Assembly: GCF_947500075.1 (NCBI RefSeq)
Contig: NZ_CANMQS010000008.1
Span: 1-64,000 of the forward strand
Length of the DNA: 64,000 nt
Direction of reading: 5' to 3'
From: an uncultured Sulfitobacter sp.
GTDB lineage: Bacteria > Pseudomonadota > Alphaproteobacteria > Rhodobacterales > Rhodobacteraceae
Part shown: piece after piece, positions 12,630 through 30,826 of the stretch
How the letters are laid out: each line of letters opens with the position of its first letter
How positions within the stretch are numbered: the stretch's first letter is position 1
Program-made: the position numbers and the translations under genes
Notes under the pieces: model-generated
Seen by the model: the letters and a program-made list of their open reading frames with translations, nothing else
Database searches by the model: none
Told to the model about the DNA's origin: nothing

Positions 12630-14003
12630 CTACTTCGTTATGATCTCCGGCCCCATCATCATCGTCGGCAACCATGTGCTGAGGAAGGGAATATAGGTCA
12701 CCATAATCAGGAAGACGAAGAGCACCGCCAGAAACGGCAGCGCCGCGCGGACCACATTCATCATCGGCATATTCGCCACGCCCGACGTCACAAAGAGGTT
12801 CAGCCCCACCGGCGGGGTGATCATCCCGATCTCCATGTTCACCACCATGATGATGCCCAGATGAATGGGATCAATGCCCAGCTCAATCGCAATCGGGAAC
12901 ACCAGCGGTGCCACGATCACCAGCAAGCCGGACGGCTCCATGAACTGCCCGCCGATCAGCAGGATCACATTCACAATCACCAGGAACATGATCGGTCCAA
13001 AGCCCGCATCCAGCATCGCGGCAGAGATCTGCTGCGGGATCTGCTCGTCTGTCAGCACGTGTTTGAGGATCAGCGCATTGGCGATGATGAACATCAAGGT
13101 CACCGTCAGCTTGCCCGCTTCAAACAGCGTATCGCGCGTGTCGCGGTGGAAGAACACGGTCACAAGCGCCTTGGGTTTCTCCCACAGTGACAGATTGCGC
13201 CCCTCCGCCACATGCAGCGGTCCCATGTCGCGGTAGACAAAGGTGGCAATGAAAAAGGCATAGACAGCCGCCACCGCAGCGGCTTCCGTGGGCGTAAAGA
13301 TACCGCCATAGATGCCGCCCAGAATGATCACGATCAGGAACAACCCCCAGCCCGCTTCGATGCCCGAGCGACGCACCTCGCCCCAGCCCAGCCAATCGCC
13401 CTTGGGCAGGTCACGCACCCGCGCGATGATATAGATCGTCACCATCAGCATGAGCCCCGCCAGCAGGCCCGGAATGACGCCCGCAAGGAACATCCGCCCC
13501 ACTGACACATCCGTGGCAGAAGCATAGACCACCATCACAATCGACGGCGGGATCAGGATGCCCAAGGTGCCCGCCACAGCGATCACACCCGCCGCAAAAT
13601 CCTTGGTATAGCCCACTTCCCGCATGCCCACGATCACGATGGACCCAATGGCCACCACCGTCGCGGGCGATGAGCCGCTCAACGCGGCGAAGAGCATACA
13701 GGCAAAGACCCCCGCAATCGCCAATCCGCCGGGCAAATGCCCGACAAGGGCGATGGAAAACCGGATGATCCTGCGCGCCACACCGCCCGTGGACATGAAA
13801 CTCGACGCCAGAATGAAAAACGGGATCGCCAGCAGCGTATAATGCCCGGCCATCGCCTGAAAGAATGTCTGCGCGATCGACGCCAGCGAGGTATCCGACA
13901 GTGCCAGCAGAAAGATGATCGACGACAGGCCAAGGGAGATCGCAATCGGCACCCCGATCAGCATCAACCCCACCACCATGGAGAAAAGAACAACAACTTC
14001 CAT
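12630..14003 (-). CDS. dctM: TRAP transporter large permease (DctM)
   Basis: A 457-residue integral membrane protein with about twelve hydrophobic segments, the channel subunit of a tripartite ATP-independent periplasmic transporter driven by sodium or proton gradients. DctM hallmarks include ALSGSSPATVVAIGSI and GILIPPSIVMVVYA near the first half and GLNLFVTSGVANM near the end. A loop around residues 260-290 is longer than usual. It follows dctQ by three bases in the same operon. Confidence 0.94.
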   Translation of the reverse strand: MEVVVLFSMVVGLMLIGVPIAISLGLSSIIFLLALSDTSLASIAQTFFQAMAGHYTLLAIPFFILASSFMSTGGVARRIIRFSIALVGHLPGGLAIAGVFACMLFAALSGSSPATVVAIGSIVIVGMREVGYTKDFAAGVIAVAGTLGILIPPSIVMVVYASATDVSVGRMFLAGVIPGLLAGLMLMVTIYIIARVRDLPKGDWLGWGEVRRSGIEAGWGLFLIVIILGGIYGGIFTPTEAAAVAAVYAFFIATFVYRDMGPLHVAEGRNLSLWEKPKALVTVFFHRDTRDTLFEAGKLTVTLMFIIANALILKHVLTDEQIPQQISAAMLDAGFGPIMFLVIVNVILLIGGQFMEPSGLLVIVAPLVFPIAIELGIDPIHLGIIMVVNMEIGMITPPVGLNLFVTSGVANMPMMNVVRAALPFLAVLFVFLIMVTYIPFLSTWLPTMMMGPEIITK

Positions 14004-14006
14004 GGC

Positions 14007-14687
14007 TTAGTTCCCCGCGTTCATATGTTTGACGTCTTCCACGGCATCTTCTGCCTCGTGGCTGACAATCAGGGTCTTCTGCCGCCCCTGCGCGACCTTC
14101 ACAAAGGCCTGCACAAACCGCAGCAACAACAGCGCCGCGCCGAAGGGCAGCATCGCATAGGGAATGAAGCGCGGCAGTTTTTCATAGGCTTCCCCCTGGT
14201 TCATGATCGGCTCAATGAACCGCAGCCACTCGGGGATCGGCGTGTCGATCACCTCATACCAGGCCTGATCACGCGAATTTTCGAACCCCGTCGGGAACCA
14301 GCGGCCAGACGTCGCATCAAGTGCCGCAAACGGCGCCCAGTAATCCCATGCGCCCTTCAGGATCAGCAGCGCGTAGATCACGCAGACCGCACCGGCCAGC
14401 AGCGCCAGAACCTTACGCGGCCCTTCGGAAAACAGGTTGATCACTGCGTCCACCCCCAGATGCGCCGTCACCTTCACCGCATAGCTCATGCCGAACAGCA
14501 CCAGCCAGGCGAACAGGAACGTCGTCATCTCCAGCCCCCAGATGATTCCGGTGTTGAACCCGTAGCGCAGCACCACGTTGATGAACGTGATGATCGTCAT
14601 CAGACCCAGGATCAGGGCAATGGCCGTCTCCTCGATCTCGCTGACGATGCGGCCGATGCCGCTTTGGTGCTCCTCGTGGTGTGCCAT
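14007..14687 (-). CDS. dctQ: TRAP transporter small permease (DctQ)
   Basis: A 226-residue small membrane subunit with four helices that supports DctM. The family pattern is visible (FINVVLRYGFNTGIIWGLEMTTFLFAWLVL). An insert of about 60 residues between helices 3 and 4 (YWAPFAALDATSGRWFPTG..) makes it longer than the usual 160-180 residues, as in some DctQ proteins of larger-solute TRAP systems. The start MAHHEEHQ has GGGGGAGG a few bases upstream. The track start 21 codons earlier would run through the intercistronic hairpin. Confidence 0.9.
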   Translation of the reverse strand: MAHHEEHQSGIGRIVSEIEETAIALILGLMTIITFINVVLRYGFNTGIIWGLEMTTFLFAWLVLFGMSYAVKVTAHLGVDAVINLFSEGPRKVLALLAGAVCVIYALLILKGAWDYWAPFAALDATSGRWFPTGFENSRDQAWYEVIDTPIPEWLRFIEPIMNQGEAYEKLPRFIPYAMLPFGAALLLLRFVQAFVKVAQGRQKTLIVSHEAEDAVEDVKHMNAGN

Positions 14688-14710
14688 GCGCGCCTCCCCC
14701 GACGTCAAAA

Positions 14711-14742
14711 GAAACCCCCGCCCCATTGTTGGGGCGAGGGCT
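14711..14742 (-). terminator. Intercistronic hairpin between dctP and dctQ
   Basis: The minus strand reads CCCTCGCCCC, a six-base loop, then GGGGCGGGGG followed by TTTCTTTT. This stem, with G-T pairs and a short T tract, sits directly after dctP. Such partial terminators let the abundant binding protein be made in excess over the membrane subunits. Confidence 0.7.
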
Positions 14743-14758
14743 GTTTTCATCAGCTACA

Positions 14759-15757
14759 TCATGAAGATGAGTTGTTGATCGCCTGTGCGGCGTCGATGTT
14801 GTCCTGACCCACATCATCCAGGAACTGGTCCCAGACGGGTTTCATGACATCGACCCATTCCTGACGCTGCTCTGCTGTCAGTTGACGGACCACGCCGCCG
14901 GCATCGATGATTGCCTGTTTGGCCTCCGCGTTCACCTTGGTGGATTCGGAGTTCCGCGCCTCTGTCACCTCAGCCACGATTGTCAACAACTGGTCACGCA
15001 CATCCGCGTCCAGCCCGTCCAGCCAGTCGGTGGAGGTCACCAGCATGTAATCGATGATGCCGTGGTTGGTTTCAGTCACGCCGTCCTGCACTTCAAAGAA
15101 CTTGCGGCCATAGATGTTGGACCAAGTGTTCTCCTGCCCATCGACAACGCCGGTTTGCAACGCGCCGTACACCTCAGAGAACGCCATCGGCTGCGGAGAG
15201 CCGCCCATCGCGGCCATCTGCGCTTTCAGCACGTCAGAGTTCTGCACGCGGAACTTCAGGCCCGATGCGTCAGAGGGCGAGATCAGCGGCACATTGGCCG
15301 ACATCTGCTTCATGCCATTGTGCCAGAATGCCAGACCCAGCAGGCCCCGGCGGGTCATGCTTTCCTTCATCGCCTGACCGGTTTCAGAGCTTTGGAAGGC
15401 ATCCACAGCGTCGATGTCCTTGAACATGAACGGCAGATCGAAGATGCGGAACTGCTTGGTGAACTGCTCAAACTTCGACAGCGACGGGGCGGCCAGCTGC
15501 ACGTCGCCCTGAAGCAAGGCTTCCAGCACCTGATCGTCGTTATAAAGCGTGGAGTTCGGGAACACTTCCATGCAGGCCTTGCCGTTCATCTCTTCGTTGA
15601 CGCGGGTTTCCAACAGCGTCGCGGCAATGCCTTTGGGGTGTTTATCGGTGTTGGTCACATGGCTGAACTTGATGACAACTTCGCCGTCGTCACAAGCCGC
15701 AGCAACAGCGCCAGCGGATACGGTCAGGGCCAATGCGGCCGCAGTCAGAAATTTCAT
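14759..15757 (-). CDS. dctP: TRAP transporter solute-binding protein (DctP)
   Basis: A 332-residue periplasmic binding protein. It has a signal peptide (MKFLTAAALALTVSAGAVAA) and the DctP fold with VIKFSHVTNTDKHPKG. The ligand-arginine segment GLKFRVQNSDVLKAQ and the hallmark GVVDGQENTWSNIYG are present. The ligand is probably an organic acid, which the sequence does not identify. The start at 15757 has GGGAGGAG upstream and replaces a track start 29 codons earlier. It is first in the dctPQM operon and diverges from the LuxR-type gene. Confidence 0.94.
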   Translation of the reverse strand: MKFLTAAALALTVSAGAVAAACDDGEVVIKFSHVTNTDKHPKGIAATLLETRVNEEMNGKACMEVFPNSTLYNDDQVLEALLQGDVQLAAPSLSKFEQFTKQFRIFDLPFMFKDIDAVDAFQSSETGQAMKESMTRRGLLGLAFWHNGMKQMSANVPLISPSDASGLKFRVQNSDVLKAQMAAMGGSPQPMAFSEVYGALQTGVVDGQENTWSNIYGRKFFEVQDGVTETNHGIIDYMLVTSTDWLDGLDADVRDQLLTIVAEVTEARNSESTKVNAEAKQAIIDAGGVVRQLTAEQRQEWVDVMKPVWDQFLDDVGQDNIDAAQAINNSSS

Positions 15758-15916
15758 GAGGTCTCCTCCCAGAGATATGGAATCGTTGGCGGCATCACCC
15801 AAGATGCCTTGCACGCTATCAAACAGAAGCGGCGGCACTGTCACAAGAAGATGGAAGGATGAGAGCGCGCGAAGGATTTATGTGAATAGAAACAGATACG
15901 TACTGCCCAAAGCTCA

Positions 15917-15996
15917 TGTGCGAAGATCCATGCCGTCCCCCTCACTGTGCGAAATTCCGCACAAGCCCCGCAGACGAATGTGCGAAATTCCGCACA
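15917..15996. promoter_or_regulatory. Operator array: two identical 18-bp palindromes plus a half-site
   Basis: TGTGCGAAATTCCGCACA occurs at 15946-15963 and again, identical, at 15979-15996. A left half (TGTGCGAAGATCC) begins at 15917. Start-to-start spacing is 29 and 33 bp, close to three helical turns, so the bound proteins would face the same side. The 339-bp space (15758-16096) holds no gene and separates dctP from the LuxR-type regulator. The binding protein could be that regulator or an IclR/GntR-type repressor. Confidence 0.75.
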
Positions 15997-26665: not shown

Positions 26666-27895
26666 CTACTGCCGAAAATCCTCCGGTCTGATCCCGTAGC
26701 GCGTCAGCTTGTCGTACAGCGTCTTGCGCGGCAGTTTCAGCGCCTCAGCCGCAGCGGAGGCTTGCCCGCCTGCACGCCGCAGTGCCGCTTCGAGCAGGGA
26801 TTGCTCCACCTGCCCCATCTGTTCGGCCAGGCCCAGCCCTGTGTCCGGCGTCATATCCTCCGGCATCCCCATCACGAACCGCATCGCCACTGACATCAGC
26901 GCCCGCGCATTGCCCGGCCAGTCACGCGCCATCAGGCCCGCGATGGTCTGCGGTGTCACGTCAGGCGGCGTCAGCCCGGCCTGTTCTGCCGCCTGATCGA
27001 CATAGCGGCGGAACATCACGGGGATGTCTTCGGGGCGTTCGGACAGCGACGGTATGCGTACCGTCAGCACGTCGAGCCGGTAATAGAGGTCCGCGTGAAA
27101 CCGCCCCTCCTCCACCTCCTGCGCCAGCTTGCGGGTGCTGCCGGCAATCAGCCGCGTCGGCGTGTTCTGCTCCACCGCTTCGGCAAGCGTCAGTTGCAGC
27201 TGTGGTGACAACTGCGTCACCTCATCAATGAACAGGCTGCCGCCCTCCCCCTCATGCAGCGCGTCCTGCAAGCCCTGCGCGGTCAGCCCGGCGGCTGCGC
27301 GTTTCACAAAAGGTGCCTTGGACCGGGCGGAGCTGAGATGCACCACTTCCGCCACTTTGGAGATCCCCGTGCCCGGTGCGCCCGTCACCAACGCAGCCCC
27401 CTCGGCCTGCGCCACCAACCGCACCCGCTTGCGCAGCGCTTCGGCCAGATCGGACGAGCCAAAGAGCATCCGCGCCGCCGGATCGCCCGTCTCCACCAGA
27501 TGCCGCAGCCGCCGGTTCTCCAGCACCATCGCCCGCGTCTTCAGCGCCCGCTCCAGCAGGGAGATGAGATCCCCCGGCGCGCAGGGTTTTTCCAGAAACC
27601 CAAAAGCACCCTGCCCCATCGCCTTGACCGCCATCGGGATGTCGCCCTCACCGGTCAGCAGGATCACCGGCAGATCCGCATCCTGTTGTTGCGCGTATTC
27701 CAGCAAGTGAAACCCATCACGCCCCGGCATCCGGATGTCAGACAGCACAACCCCTTCAAAATCCGGCGTGATGTGATCCTTGGCCACCACAAATGACCCA
27801 GCGGCCACGGCTGAGATATCCGCAAGTTCTAGCGTCTGTGACAGCGCTTCGCGCACGGCCGCGTCGTCATCCACCAACAGCACCCGGTTGCTCAT
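26666..27895 (-). CDS. DctD-like response regulator with a degenerate AAA+ domain
   Basis: A 409-residue regulator: receiver domain (LLVDDDAAVREAL, phospho-Asp in VVLSDIRMPGRDGF, Lys in FLEKP), AAA+ region, and a Fis-type helix-turn-helix (SAAAEALKLPRKTLYDKL). The AAA+ part is degenerate. The Walker A reads GAPGTGIS, without the catalytic lysine, and no GAFTGA loop exists between KAPFVKRAA and SLFIDEV. GAFTGA contacts sigma-54, so a normal sigma-54 activator role is unlikely. Walker B (SLFIDEV) and the YYRLDVLTVRIP region remain. It overlaps the kinase gene by four bases. Confidence 0.88.
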   Translation of the reverse strand: MSNRVLLVDDDAAVREALSQTLELADISAVAAGSFVVAKDHITPDFEGVVLSDIRMPGRDGFHLLEYAQQQDADLPVILLTGEGDIPMAVKAMGQGAFGFLEKPCAPGDLISLLERALKTRAMVLENRRLRHLVETGDPAARMLFGSSDLAEALRKRVRLVAQAEGAALVTGAPGTGISKVAEVVHLSSARSKAPFVKRAAAGLTAQGLQDALHEGEGGSLFIDEVTQLSPQLQLTLAEAVEQNTPTRLIAGSTRKLAQEVEEGRFHADLYYRLDVLTVRIPSLSERPEDIPVMFRRYVDQAAEQAGLTPPDVTPQTIAGLMARDWPGNARALMSVAMRFVMGMPEDMTPDTGLGLAEQMGQVEQSLLEAALRRAGGQASAAAEALKLPRKTLYDKLTRYGIRPEDFRQ

Positions 27896-29586
27896 GCTGC
27901 TTCCTCCACCTCTGCCACCGCCCGTTCGAGCGTCACGGTAAACTGCGCGCCGCCCTGCGGCAGATTGCTGCCTTTGATCTGACCGCCAAAGCTCTGCACG
28001 ATGCCATAGCTGATCGACAGACCCAATCCCATGCCGCCCGTCTCTCCCACGGTTTTTGTCGTGTAGAAGGGGTCAAACACCTTGTCCGGCATCTCAATAC
28101 CCGGCCCGGTGTCTTCGATCCGCACCGCGACGCTGTCGGTCTCCTCAACCGTGACAGACAGGTGTTTGTGGGTGCTGGAGGCCATCGCATCAACCGCGTT
28201 GGTGATCAGGTTCACAAACACCTGCCCCAGCCGCACTTCGCCGCCCTGTACCCAGACGTCATGGCCGGGTGGCACATAGCGCAGCGTCACCCCTGCCTCT
28301 GCCATGCGTCCCTTGGTCAGATCGAATGTCGCAGCCAGCACTGCCCCCAATTCGACCCGTTCCTGCGGCCCGGTTTCCTGCCGCGCAAAGGCCCGCAGGT
28401 TCTGGATGATCCGCCCCATCCGCCGCGCCATGTCAGAAATGCGCGTCAGGTTTTCTTCCGCCCGCTCCGGTTTGCCCCGCGCCATGAATTCAACTGCGTT
28501 TTCCGCAAAGGACCGGATGGCCATCAACGGCTGGTTCAACTCATGGCTGATGCCCGCAGACATCTGCCCCAGCGCGCTCAGCTTGCCGGCCTGCACCAGA
28601 TCATCCTGCGCCCGTCTGAGTGCGGCGGTCCGTTCTGCCACCCGCGCTTCCAACTGCTGGTTCGCCTCCGCCAGCGCGCGCCGCCTTTCGGACGCCAGAA
28701 ACAACAGCGACCCGAATGCCAGACACAGGGCCGCCACCGCCGCCGCCTGCGCCCAGGCAAAAGCGCGCGCCTGCGTGACATCCAGCAACACCTCACCCAT
28801 CATGCCAATCACCGGCAGATCCTGCGTCAGATGCAGCCCCTCGCGTGGCAGATAAGGCCCCCACCCGACGGTCCAGATCTCATGACCCCCGATGCGTGTG
28901 ATCCTGAAGGACGGTTCCTGCCCATCAGGCGGACGCAGCCCCGGATCCCCGACCGGGCGCTGCCACAACAGGATCTCCGACCGGTTGGAGATATAGACCA
29001 CACCGTTGAGATCAGTGAAGAACGCCGGCGGATTGGTGCCGCGCCAATTGTAGTCAATGCCATTCAGGTCCGTGACCACCACAACCGCACCCTGCACCCG
29101 GCCATCAGGTCCAAACATCGGGGCGGCGTGGTAAAATGCGCGCTCTGTCAATGGCATGGCAGGCCCGTGTCCCCAGCCAAGCGCACCACGCAGCGCCCGC
29201 CTGACATGCGGTTGCGCGCTCAGATCCCGAGGCGGCGCATCCTGTGCCGCCGCACGTATCCGGCCTGCACTGTCCAGCACCAGCACATCCAGCGTTGCGG
29301 ATTTATCCGCCACTTCCAGCAACAGATCGCGCGTGTCCTCAGCCGAAGCACCATGAAGAGCCGCAACAACACCGGGATGATCGGCCATGGTGACGGCCAG
29401 ATCCCGGTAGCGTTGCAATTGCCCCACCAGCCGGTCGCCTGCCAGCGCCAGATCCGCCTCTCCCCGCGCCTCCAGCTGGTCGAGCGCCTGATTGAAGCCA
29501 TAGCGCCAGACCCCGCCCGACAGGGCCAGGACCACGGCAAGAAACGCCGTCACCACGGCAAGTCGCTGAACCAATCCACCTCTCAT
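27892..29586 (-). CDS. DctB-like sensor histidine kinase
   Basis: A 564-residue membrane kinase. The first membrane helix (LAVVTAFLAVVLALSGGVW), a large periplasmic sensor region and the second helix near residue 290 resemble DctB C4-dicarboxylate sensors. A coiled coil precedes the H box ISHELNQPLMAIRSF; the N box (NLITNAVDAM) and the G boxes (DTGPGIE, GGMGLGLSIS) follow. It is the partner of the downstream regulator. Start is uncertain: MRGGLVQR (29586) is chosen because the track start overlaps the divergent P450 gene. A ligand of the C4-dicarboxylate kind is inference. Confidence 0.88.
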   Translation of the reverse strand: MRGGLVQRLAVVTAFLAVVLALSGGVWRYGFNQALDQLEARGEADLALAGDRLVGQLQRYRDLAVTMADHPGVVAALHGASAEDTRDLLLEVADKSATLDVLVLDSAGRIRAAAQDAPPRDLSAQPHVRRALRGALGWGHGPAMPLTERAFYHAAPMFGPDGRVQGAVVVVTDLNGIDYNWRGTNPPAFFTDLNGVVYISNRSEILLWQRPVGDPGLRPPDGQEPSFRITRIGGHEIWTVGWGPYLPREGLHLTQDLPVIGMMGEVLLDVTQARAFAWAQAAAVAALCLAFGSLLFLASERRRALAEANQQLEARVAERTAALRRAQDDLVQAGKLSALGQMSAGISHELNQPLMAIRSFAENAVEFMARGKPERAEENLTRISDMARRMGRIIQNLRAFARQETGPQERVELGAVLAATFDLTKGRMAEAGVTLRYVPPGHDVWVQGGEVRLGQVFVNLITNAVDAMASSTHKHLSVTVEETDSVAVRIEDTGPGIEMPDKVFDPFYTTKTVGETGGMGLGLSISYGIVQSFGGQIKGSNLPQGGAQFTVTLERAVAEVEEAA

Positions 29587-29644
29587 CGTGCCAAACTGCA
29601 CGACCCCTCTTGCAAAGGCCAGCGCCAGTTGATCCTGTTGGCCC

Positions 29645-30826
29645 ATGGAAACGCTGCATCTTTCGCCCCAGGACCCCGATTTCGTCCAGAACCCCTATCC
29701 CGCCTATGACGCGGCCCGCGCCCGTGGTCCCGTGCTGTTCTGGGCGGACTGTGGCATGGCCGCCGCCTTTGACGCAGCCACGGTGAATGCACTGCTGCGG
29801 GACCGGCGGCTGGGCCGGGAGAAGCCTGCGGCCCTGCAAACCCCGTACCCCGCCCATCTGTCCGATTGGGCCCTGGCCGAAACCCACTCCATGCTGGATA
29901 TGGAACCGCCCCGCCACACCCGCCTGCGCGGCCTTGTCCTGCGGGCTTTCACGTCGCGCCGCATTGCGGGCCTGTCGGGTGACATTACCGAGGTCTGTGC
30001 CGATCTGCTGGACACTCGGCGCGATGGCCCCTTCGACCTGATCCCCGCCTATTGCACCCAGGTCCCCGTGCGCATCATCGCCCGCCTGTTGGGCGTGCCC
30101 GAAGAGATGTCAGGGGACCTGCTGCGCTGGTCCCGCGATATGGTGGCAATGTATCAAGCAGGCCGGGACCGCACCACTGAGGACCGCGCCAACACCGCCG
30201 CTGCCGAATTCATCGCCTTCCTGCGCAGCTACATCGACAAACGCCGCTCTGATCCCCGCGACGATCTGATCACCCAGCTGATCGCCGCAGAGGAAGAGGG
30301 CGAAAAGCTCACCCCTGATGAGCTGATCGGCACCTGCATCCTGCTGCTGAATGCAGGACATGAAGCGACAGTGCACAGCATCGGCAACGGCGTGAAATGC
30401 CTGCTGGAACAGGGCACAGCGCTCAGCGCCCTTGCACCGGAACGGATCGCTGGCACCGTTGAGGAAATCCTGCGCTACGACGCGCCCCTGCACATGTTCA
30501 CACGCATTGCCTATGAGGACATCAACATCGGGCCGCACAGCCTTGAAAAAGGGCAGGAAATCGCCCTGATCCTCGGCGCGGCCAACCGCGACCCCGCGCT
30601 GTTCGAAGACCCGAACACCTTCAACCCGAACCGCGCGATCAAACCCAACACCACCTTCGGCGCAGGCCTGCATTTCTGCGTCGGGGCGCCCTTGGCCCGG
30701 CTGGAATTGCAAATCGCCCTGCCCGCCTTGTTTGCAGCATATCCCGACCTGCACCTGACGGAACCGCCGCGTTACGCCAACAGCTACCATTTCCACAAAC
30801 TCGACCGCCTGATGGTCACACCGTGA
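29645..30826 (+). CDS. Cytochrome P450
   Basis: A 393-residue soluble bacterial P450. The I-helix motif LLNAGHEAT, the ExxR pair in EEILRYDAP and the heme-cysteine loop FGAGLHFCVGAPLAR are all intact. It should hydroxylate a small organic molecule using electrons from a ferredoxin/reductase pair. No ferredoxin gene lies beside it; the only nearby reductase is fpr at 36.3 kb. The start METLHLSP is near the divergent dctB start, so the two genes may share a promoter region. The CYP family and substrate are not known. Confidence 0.93.
   Translation: METLHLSPQDPDFVQNPYPAYDAARARGPVLFWADCGMAAAFDAATVNALLRDRRLGREKPAALQTPYPAHLSDWALAETHSMLDMEPPRHTRLRGLVLRAFTSRRIAGLSGDITEVCADLLDTRRDGPFDLIPAYCTQVPVRIIARLLGVPEEMSGDLLRWSRDMVAMYQAGRDRTTEDRANTAAAEFIAFLRSYIDKRRSDPRDDLITQLIAAEEEGEKLTPDELIGTCILLLNAGHEATVHSIGNGVKCLLEQGTALSALAPERIAGTVEEILRYDAPLHMFTRIAYEDINIGPHSLEKGQEIALILGAANRDPALFEDPNTFNPNRAIKPNTTFGAGLHFCVGAPLARLELQIALPALFAAYPDLHLTEPPRYANSYHFHKLDRLMVTP

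Follow-up and report, generated by a model that had tools for sequence, protein, structure and literature searches.

A DctD clade of Rhodobacteraceae without the Walker A lysine and GAFTGA loop probably activates dctPQM independently of sigma-54

The window, i.e. the whole stretch of 64,000 nucleotides from an uncultured Sulfitobacter sp. analysed here, encodes on its minus strand (26666..27895) a response regulator that represents, within the Rhodobacteraceae, the orthologue of DctD, the regulator of C4-dicarboxylate uptake. The protein and its clade, which we label DctD*, have lost the Walker A lysine and the GAFTGA loop, and the sigma-54 promoter of the neighbouring dctPQM operon is absent. 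We consider it likely that DctD* is a phosphorylation-controlled, sigma-54-independent and probably non-hydrolysing activator of dctPQM that was converted from an ATP-driven sigma-54 activator.

The dctD* gene and its product

The open reading frame starts with ATG, is free of frameshifts and encodes 409 amino acids that comprise a receiver, a degenerate AAA+ domain, a lid and a Fis-type helix-turn-helix (HTH). Pfam assigned Response_reg to residues 5-114 (3.6e-24), Sigma54_activ_2 to residues 145-284 (3.7e-20), AAA_lid_14 to residues 286-345 and HTH_8 to residues 361-400. The preliminary description of the sequence had called the receiver and Fis domains intact, and both are: the receiver (residues 4-118, 27542..27886, minus strand) keeps D10, D53, T81 and K103, and the Fis-type HTH (residues 361-403, 26687..26815, minus strand; LKLPRKTLYDKL) is predicted by Pfam and alignment to bind DNA. 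The adjoining gene (27892..29646, minus strand), which overlaps dctD* by 4 bp, codes for a DctB-like sensor histidine kinase with HisKA, HATPase_c and a weak dCache domain, so that the hallmark of DctD, a receiver, AAA+ and Fis HTH protein with an adjoining gene for the cognate DctB kinase, is present in the window.

The P-loop of the protein, VTGAPGTGISKVAEVVH, is altered to GAPGTGISK (residues 172-180, 27356..27382, minus strand), with Ile178 at the position of the canonical Walker A lysine and a near-invariant lysine at position 180. In comparison with ZraR, NtrC1 and NtrX, the segment holding the GAFTGA L1 loop is deleted (at about residues 204-219, 27239..27286, minus strand). Both losses had been described exactly beforehand.

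Conservation of DctD* in Rhodobacteraceae

A search of 298 Rhodobacteraceae genomes returned strong orthologues in about 127 of them, and 126 orthologues with at least 52% identity were aligned. An alignment across Rhodobacterales had been proposed as a check, and that of the family reveals that loss of the Walker A lysine is common to the clade: none of the 126 sequences carries K at position 178 (I66/T36/V15/N4/L3/M1/S1), while 124 of them have K and two have R at position 180. When the window protein is aligned with 62 sequences from a named set of public genomes (Sulfitobacter, Roseobacter, Ruegeria, Shimia, Leisingera and others), position 178 reads I54/V8/F1. The GAFTGA deletion extends throughout the clade, and further catalytic positions are degenerate: T/Y/S prevail in place of the sensor-I Asn (254), N/S/H in place of the first arginine finger (267) and R in place of the 'switch' Asn (199). 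The P-loop glycines are retained among the 126 orthologues, as are D224 (120/126) and E225 (108/126) of Walker B, the second finger position 273 (R102/K21) and the sensor-II R331 (124/126). Outside the Rhodobacteraceae, only distant matches of about 40% identity to canonical or sister-type DctDs were obtained from 142 sampled alphaproteobacterial genomes.

A sequencing error or a pseudogene was ruled out as the origin of the altered P-loop, as the same class of substitution recurs in 126 orthologues with a dN/dS of 0.05. An indel that moved the lysine was likewise ruled out, because the stretch from the P-loop glycines to His186 is free of indels in the window protein and equals in spacing that of lysine-containing relatives.

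The dN/dS values among Ruegeria sequences, for which dS is near saturation, amount to about 0.05 overall and 0.07 for the AAA+ domain and are indicative of purifying selection on DctD*. These values bear on whether DctD* might be a decaying regulator on its way to loss once sigma-54 was gone. In accordance with decay, sequence change is faster in the AAA+ domain than elsewhere in the protein (pairwise identity 0.51 versus 0.70), and the catalytic positions are variable. We nevertheless regard decay as highly improbable, since the protein is found family-wide and all but one of its 126 orthologues are devoid of an internal stop, the receiver, lid and HTH are strongly conserved together with the operators described below, and the gene is retained in genomes with rpoN (26) as well as without it (101). 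The AAA+ fold is also kept in an AlphaFold2 model built from a 63-sequence alignment (pLDDT 89), which matches FleQ, FlrC and NtrC1 with target-normalised TM scores of 0.74-0.76 at 2.1-2.3 Å; PspF was matched as well, and the matches overall lie at 2-3 Å.

The dctPQM operon and its operators

Neighbouring genes in 125 relatives, located by tblastn, follow the order dctB-dctD*-dctPQM, with dctB found in 124, dctP in 120, dctQ in 115 and dctM in 113. This synteny, together with conserved operators, substantiates the initial designation of the protein as DctD-like. In the window, dctPQM lies on the same contig and strand as dctD* and comprises the genes for the TRAP solute-binding protein DctP (14759..15757; 78% identical to DctP of a relative), the small permease DctQ (14007..14750) and the large permease DctM (12630..14003), all on the minus strand. 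About 10 kb of other genes (16.0-26.6 kb) separate the operon from dctD*. This insert consists of plus-strand genes for a LuxR-type regulator, a peptide ABC transporter, hydantoinase-like and related proteins and a periplasmic binding protein. The dctP operators stayed beside dctP despite the insert, and dctD* and dctPQM are adjacent in nearly all relatives.

At 188 of 204 loci, a set that includes some genomes represented twice and eight sister-type loci, the region upstream of dctP contains two or more copies of an 18-bp palindrome, TGTGCGGAAWTYCGCACA; in 180 loci the copies are 32-34 bp apart. On grounds of conservation, we assign two putative operators upstream of dctP in the window, UAS1 (15979..15996, minus strand; TGTGCGGAATTTCGCACA) and, 33 bp from it, UAS2 (15946..15963, minus strand; TGTGCGGAATTTCGCACA). 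The 4.86 Mb genome of the window contains only three exact copies of the palindrome, two of them at dctP. The third, a single copy at L284:2521-2538 (G000:C4:516520), precedes a second TRAP operon by about 260 bp. By synteny and operators, the C4-dicarboxylate transporter operon is hence the neighbour and the predicted target of DctD*. In a Rhodobacter sphaeroides network paper (PMC4344238), no known DctD regulon was found.

Sigma-54 and the dctP promoter

The preliminary description held that sigma-54 activation should be impossible, and three results bear this out. The protein is devoid of GAFTGA, the target operon has no -24/-12 element, and a search with the Pfam domains PF04552 and PF04963, positive for the controls E. 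coli, B. subtilis and Caulobacter, gave no match to RpoN in the 99.97% complete genome of the window; as far as these two domains can tell, a divergent gene supplying sigma-54 was thereby ruled out. Among the DctD* genomes sampled, rpoN is missing in 101 of 127 and found in 26, and it is missing in 17 of 20 named ones. Its presence in 26 genomes means that the altered protein is not confined to cells without RpoN. All other regulators with a sigma-54 activator domain found in the window's genome (a DctD paralogue, NtrX, NtrC, an HupR-like and an RtcR-like protein) likewise lack an intact GAFTGA but keep a P-loop lysine. The RtcR-like protein (L018, G000:C10:86357), GAFTGA-less in this RpoN-less genome, adjoins an apparent TROVE/Ro60-like gene.

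Inspection of target promoters for -24/-12 elements had also been suggested. A sigma-54 score of at least 13.5 out of 15.5 was reached by 2 of 196 upstream regions of dctP at DctD* loci versus 1.7 expected in shuffles, which places these loci at chance level. All eight loci at which a GAFTGA-bearing DctD adjoins dctP (L188, L328, L330, L332, L334, L335, L339 and L354) possess an element with a score of 13.5-15.5, and the contrast of 2/196 with 8/8 yields a Fisher p of 7e-13 at a threshold picked after the data had been seen. Recognisable versions of the DctD* palindrome are present at some GAFTGA-bearing loci (L330, L339).

A strict sigma-70-like box, TTGWGN-N17-TYNNNT, was detected in 68 of the 204 loci (2.1 expected) and weaker boxes elsewhere; in 63 of the 68 the strict box is placed 105-109 bp from the centre of UAS2. 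The pattern scan predicts in the window a -35 element TTGTGA (15841..15846, minus strand) and, 17 bp past it, a -10 element TTTGAT (15818..15823, minus strand). Judged by its sequence, the dctP promoter of DctD* loci has lost the sigma-54 element and may be of the ordinary sigma-70 type. That the strict pattern matches only one third of the loci counts against our preferred explanation. Homology-based naming as sigma-54-dependent DctD would mislabel the entire clade.

Activation, repression and published mutant data

In the mechanism that we favour, DctB would sense C4-dicarboxylates and phosphorylate D53, and phosphorylated DctD* would bind the two 18-bp palindromes, known from their conservation, whose centres lie about 105-140 bp upstream of the -35 element of dctP. 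Bound DctD* might then recruit or remodel the housekeeping sigma-70 RNA polymerase at a promoter of the TTGWGN-N17-TYNNNT type and thus activate dctPQM.

Published in vivo data on Ruegeria pomeroyi DSS-3 bear on the direction of control. The transporter encoded by dctMPQ (SPO2626-2628) takes up fumarate, malate and succinate, and a mutant in SPO2630 is impaired in growth on fumarate (listed value 96.9) and on succinate (81.8) in a manner comparable to the dctM mutant (99.1 and 92.6) and the dctP mutant (96.7 and 75.2) (PMC10130141). SPO2630 is annotated as a C4-dicarboxylate transport sensor (PMC4809877), and the arrangement of genes in a related R. pomeroyi strain (L267) would make SPO2629 dctD*. 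The phenotype of the SPO2630 mutant supports a positive pathway through the DctB-DctD* system, with the caveat that the mutation affects the sensor gene rather than dctD* and that the insertion may have had a polar effect on dctD.

Alternatively, DctD* could act as a repressor or anti-activator that represses dctPQM from the UAS and is relieved by DctB. Operators upstream of a sigma-70-like promoter would fit such a role, and Caulobacter NtrC represses some promoters (PMC10274813). We find this improbable, as loss of the sensor gene causes a growth defect on fumarate as expected for a positive pathway (PMC10130141), the UAS at 105-140 bp upstream of -35 are far off for simple repression, and the ancestral DctD is an activator.

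The AAA+ domain and nucleotides

For an activator of this kind, the AAA+ domain with its retained fold would probably serve as an oligomerisation or RNA polymerase contact module that does not hydrolyse ATP. The first reading had proposed that the domain has lost its ATPase role. The degenerate catalytic positions strongly suggest such a loss; since the P-loop segment is under strong constraint and its glycines are kept along with sensor II and the D/E of Walker B, nucleotide binding may persist.

Hence, a non-canonical nucleotide switch has to be weighed, in which Lys180, the P-loop glycines and Walker B would still bind a nucleotide, be it ATP, ADP or a different one, and activation would be driven by this binding instead of by hydrolysis, as reported for R. 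capsulatus NtrC. Besides the near invariance of K180, that of the P-loop glycines, E183 and H186 is in line with this idea, as are the dN/dS of the P-loop segment (0.014, versus 0.07 for the AAA+ domain), its pairwise identity (0.70 versus 0.51) and the retained Walker B D/E and sensor-II Arg. Yet general P-loop geometry makes it unlikely that a lysine two residues past the canonical one contacts the beta and gamma phosphates, three further residues (sensor-I Asn, first arginine finger, switch Asn) have been lost, and the conservation of the P-loop could be structural. We hold such a switch to be possible but clearly less probable than activation through a non-hydrolysing AAA+ domain. Still more doubtful appears the specific proposal that the relocated lysine (GxPGxG[IVT]SK) equips a sigma-70 activator with a novel type of switch that responds to a nucleotide or ligand; if it were true, the AAA+ motor would have been rebuilt into a non-hydrolysing sensor and not merely disabled.

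Comparison with characterized NtrC-family regulators

DctD of rhizobia, Pseudomonas and Vibrio, a sigma-54-dependent group I bEBP, resembles DctD* in domain order, DctB partner, C4-dicarboxylate transporter target and tandem upstream sites. Unlike these proteins, DctD* lacks GAFTGA, the Walker A Lys, the first arginine finger and the sensor-I Asn, its target is without a -24/-12 promoter, and its host cell often without RpoN.

The preliminary description had ranked the protein as a potential second case after R. capsulatus NtrC, a count overtaken by several NtrC-family proteins that lack GAFTGA and are linked to sigma-70: E. coli TyrR and DhaR and R. capsulatus HupR (PMC3162934), as well as R. 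capsulatus NtrC, Caulobacter NtrC and VpsR (PMC10274813). The parallel to R. capsulatus NtrC holds for the missing GAFTGA and, as predicted, for sigma-70 and fails for a lost nucleotide role, as ATP binding is reported necessary for this protein (PMC10274813). The NtrCs of R. capsulatus and Caulobacter, both alphaproteobacterial, share with DctD* the GAFTGA deletion and the retained receiver and HTH and act at sigma-70 promoters, as predicted for DctD*. They differ in controlling nitrogen instead of C4 metabolism; while the R. capsulatus type would call for an intact Walker A for ATP binding and Walker A K178 and Walker B D235 are reported necessary for Caulobacter NtrC (PMC10274813), position 178 of DctD* is mostly Ile, Thr or Val. 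VpsR of Vibrio cholerae, likewise an NtrC-family protein without GAFTGA acting at sigma-70 promoters, is reportedly independent of ATP (PMC10274813) and is among the fold matches of the DctD* model. Although VpsR binds c-di-GMP according to a PDB title, is not orthologous and has another target, it is by analogy the nearest functional precedent for ATP-independence. HupR, TyrR and DhaR, with defective GAFTGA and sigma-70 dependence (PMC3162934), differ from DctD* in ligands and targets. Judged from the searchable literature, three features are new: a clade spread across the family that is devoid of the Walker A lysine, a conserved lysine at a displaced position, and a retained operon whose sigma-54 promoter was lost in parallel. 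The system would control the uptake of C4 acids, a substrate class for roseobacters living with phytoplankton.

Order of the losses

In a quick tree with long branches at the outgroup, DctD* forms a single clade (SH-aLRT 99) nested among DctDs that lack the loop and contain the lysine (L182, L183, L184). Below these branches L188, which has both GAFTGA and the lysine and stems from a genome with rpoN. As the best reading, this topology suggests that the GAFTGA loop was lost first and the Walker A lysine second, and that meanwhile the operators and the target operon were retained and the -24/-12 promoter disappeared. One operon would thus offer a traceable series from GAFTGA, Walker A Lys and sigma-54 promoter through a loop-less, lysine-containing stage to the loss of both with related dctP operators kept, and existing proteins and promoters make it possible to test directly how an ATP-dependent enhancer-binding protein can be rewired to the housekeeping polymerase.

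Evolution followed a different route in a sister group (L185-L187, L189, L322 and L327), where Walker B is lost in the members read; at several of its loci, dctB-dctD is divergent from dctPQM and the UAS copies are 41-42 bp apart. A further DctD clade of Rhodobacteraceae (L309-L325) mostly has GAFPGA in place of GAFTGA, and at two GAFPGA loci outside the family (L352, L353) dctP is adjoining and the -24/-12 element absent.
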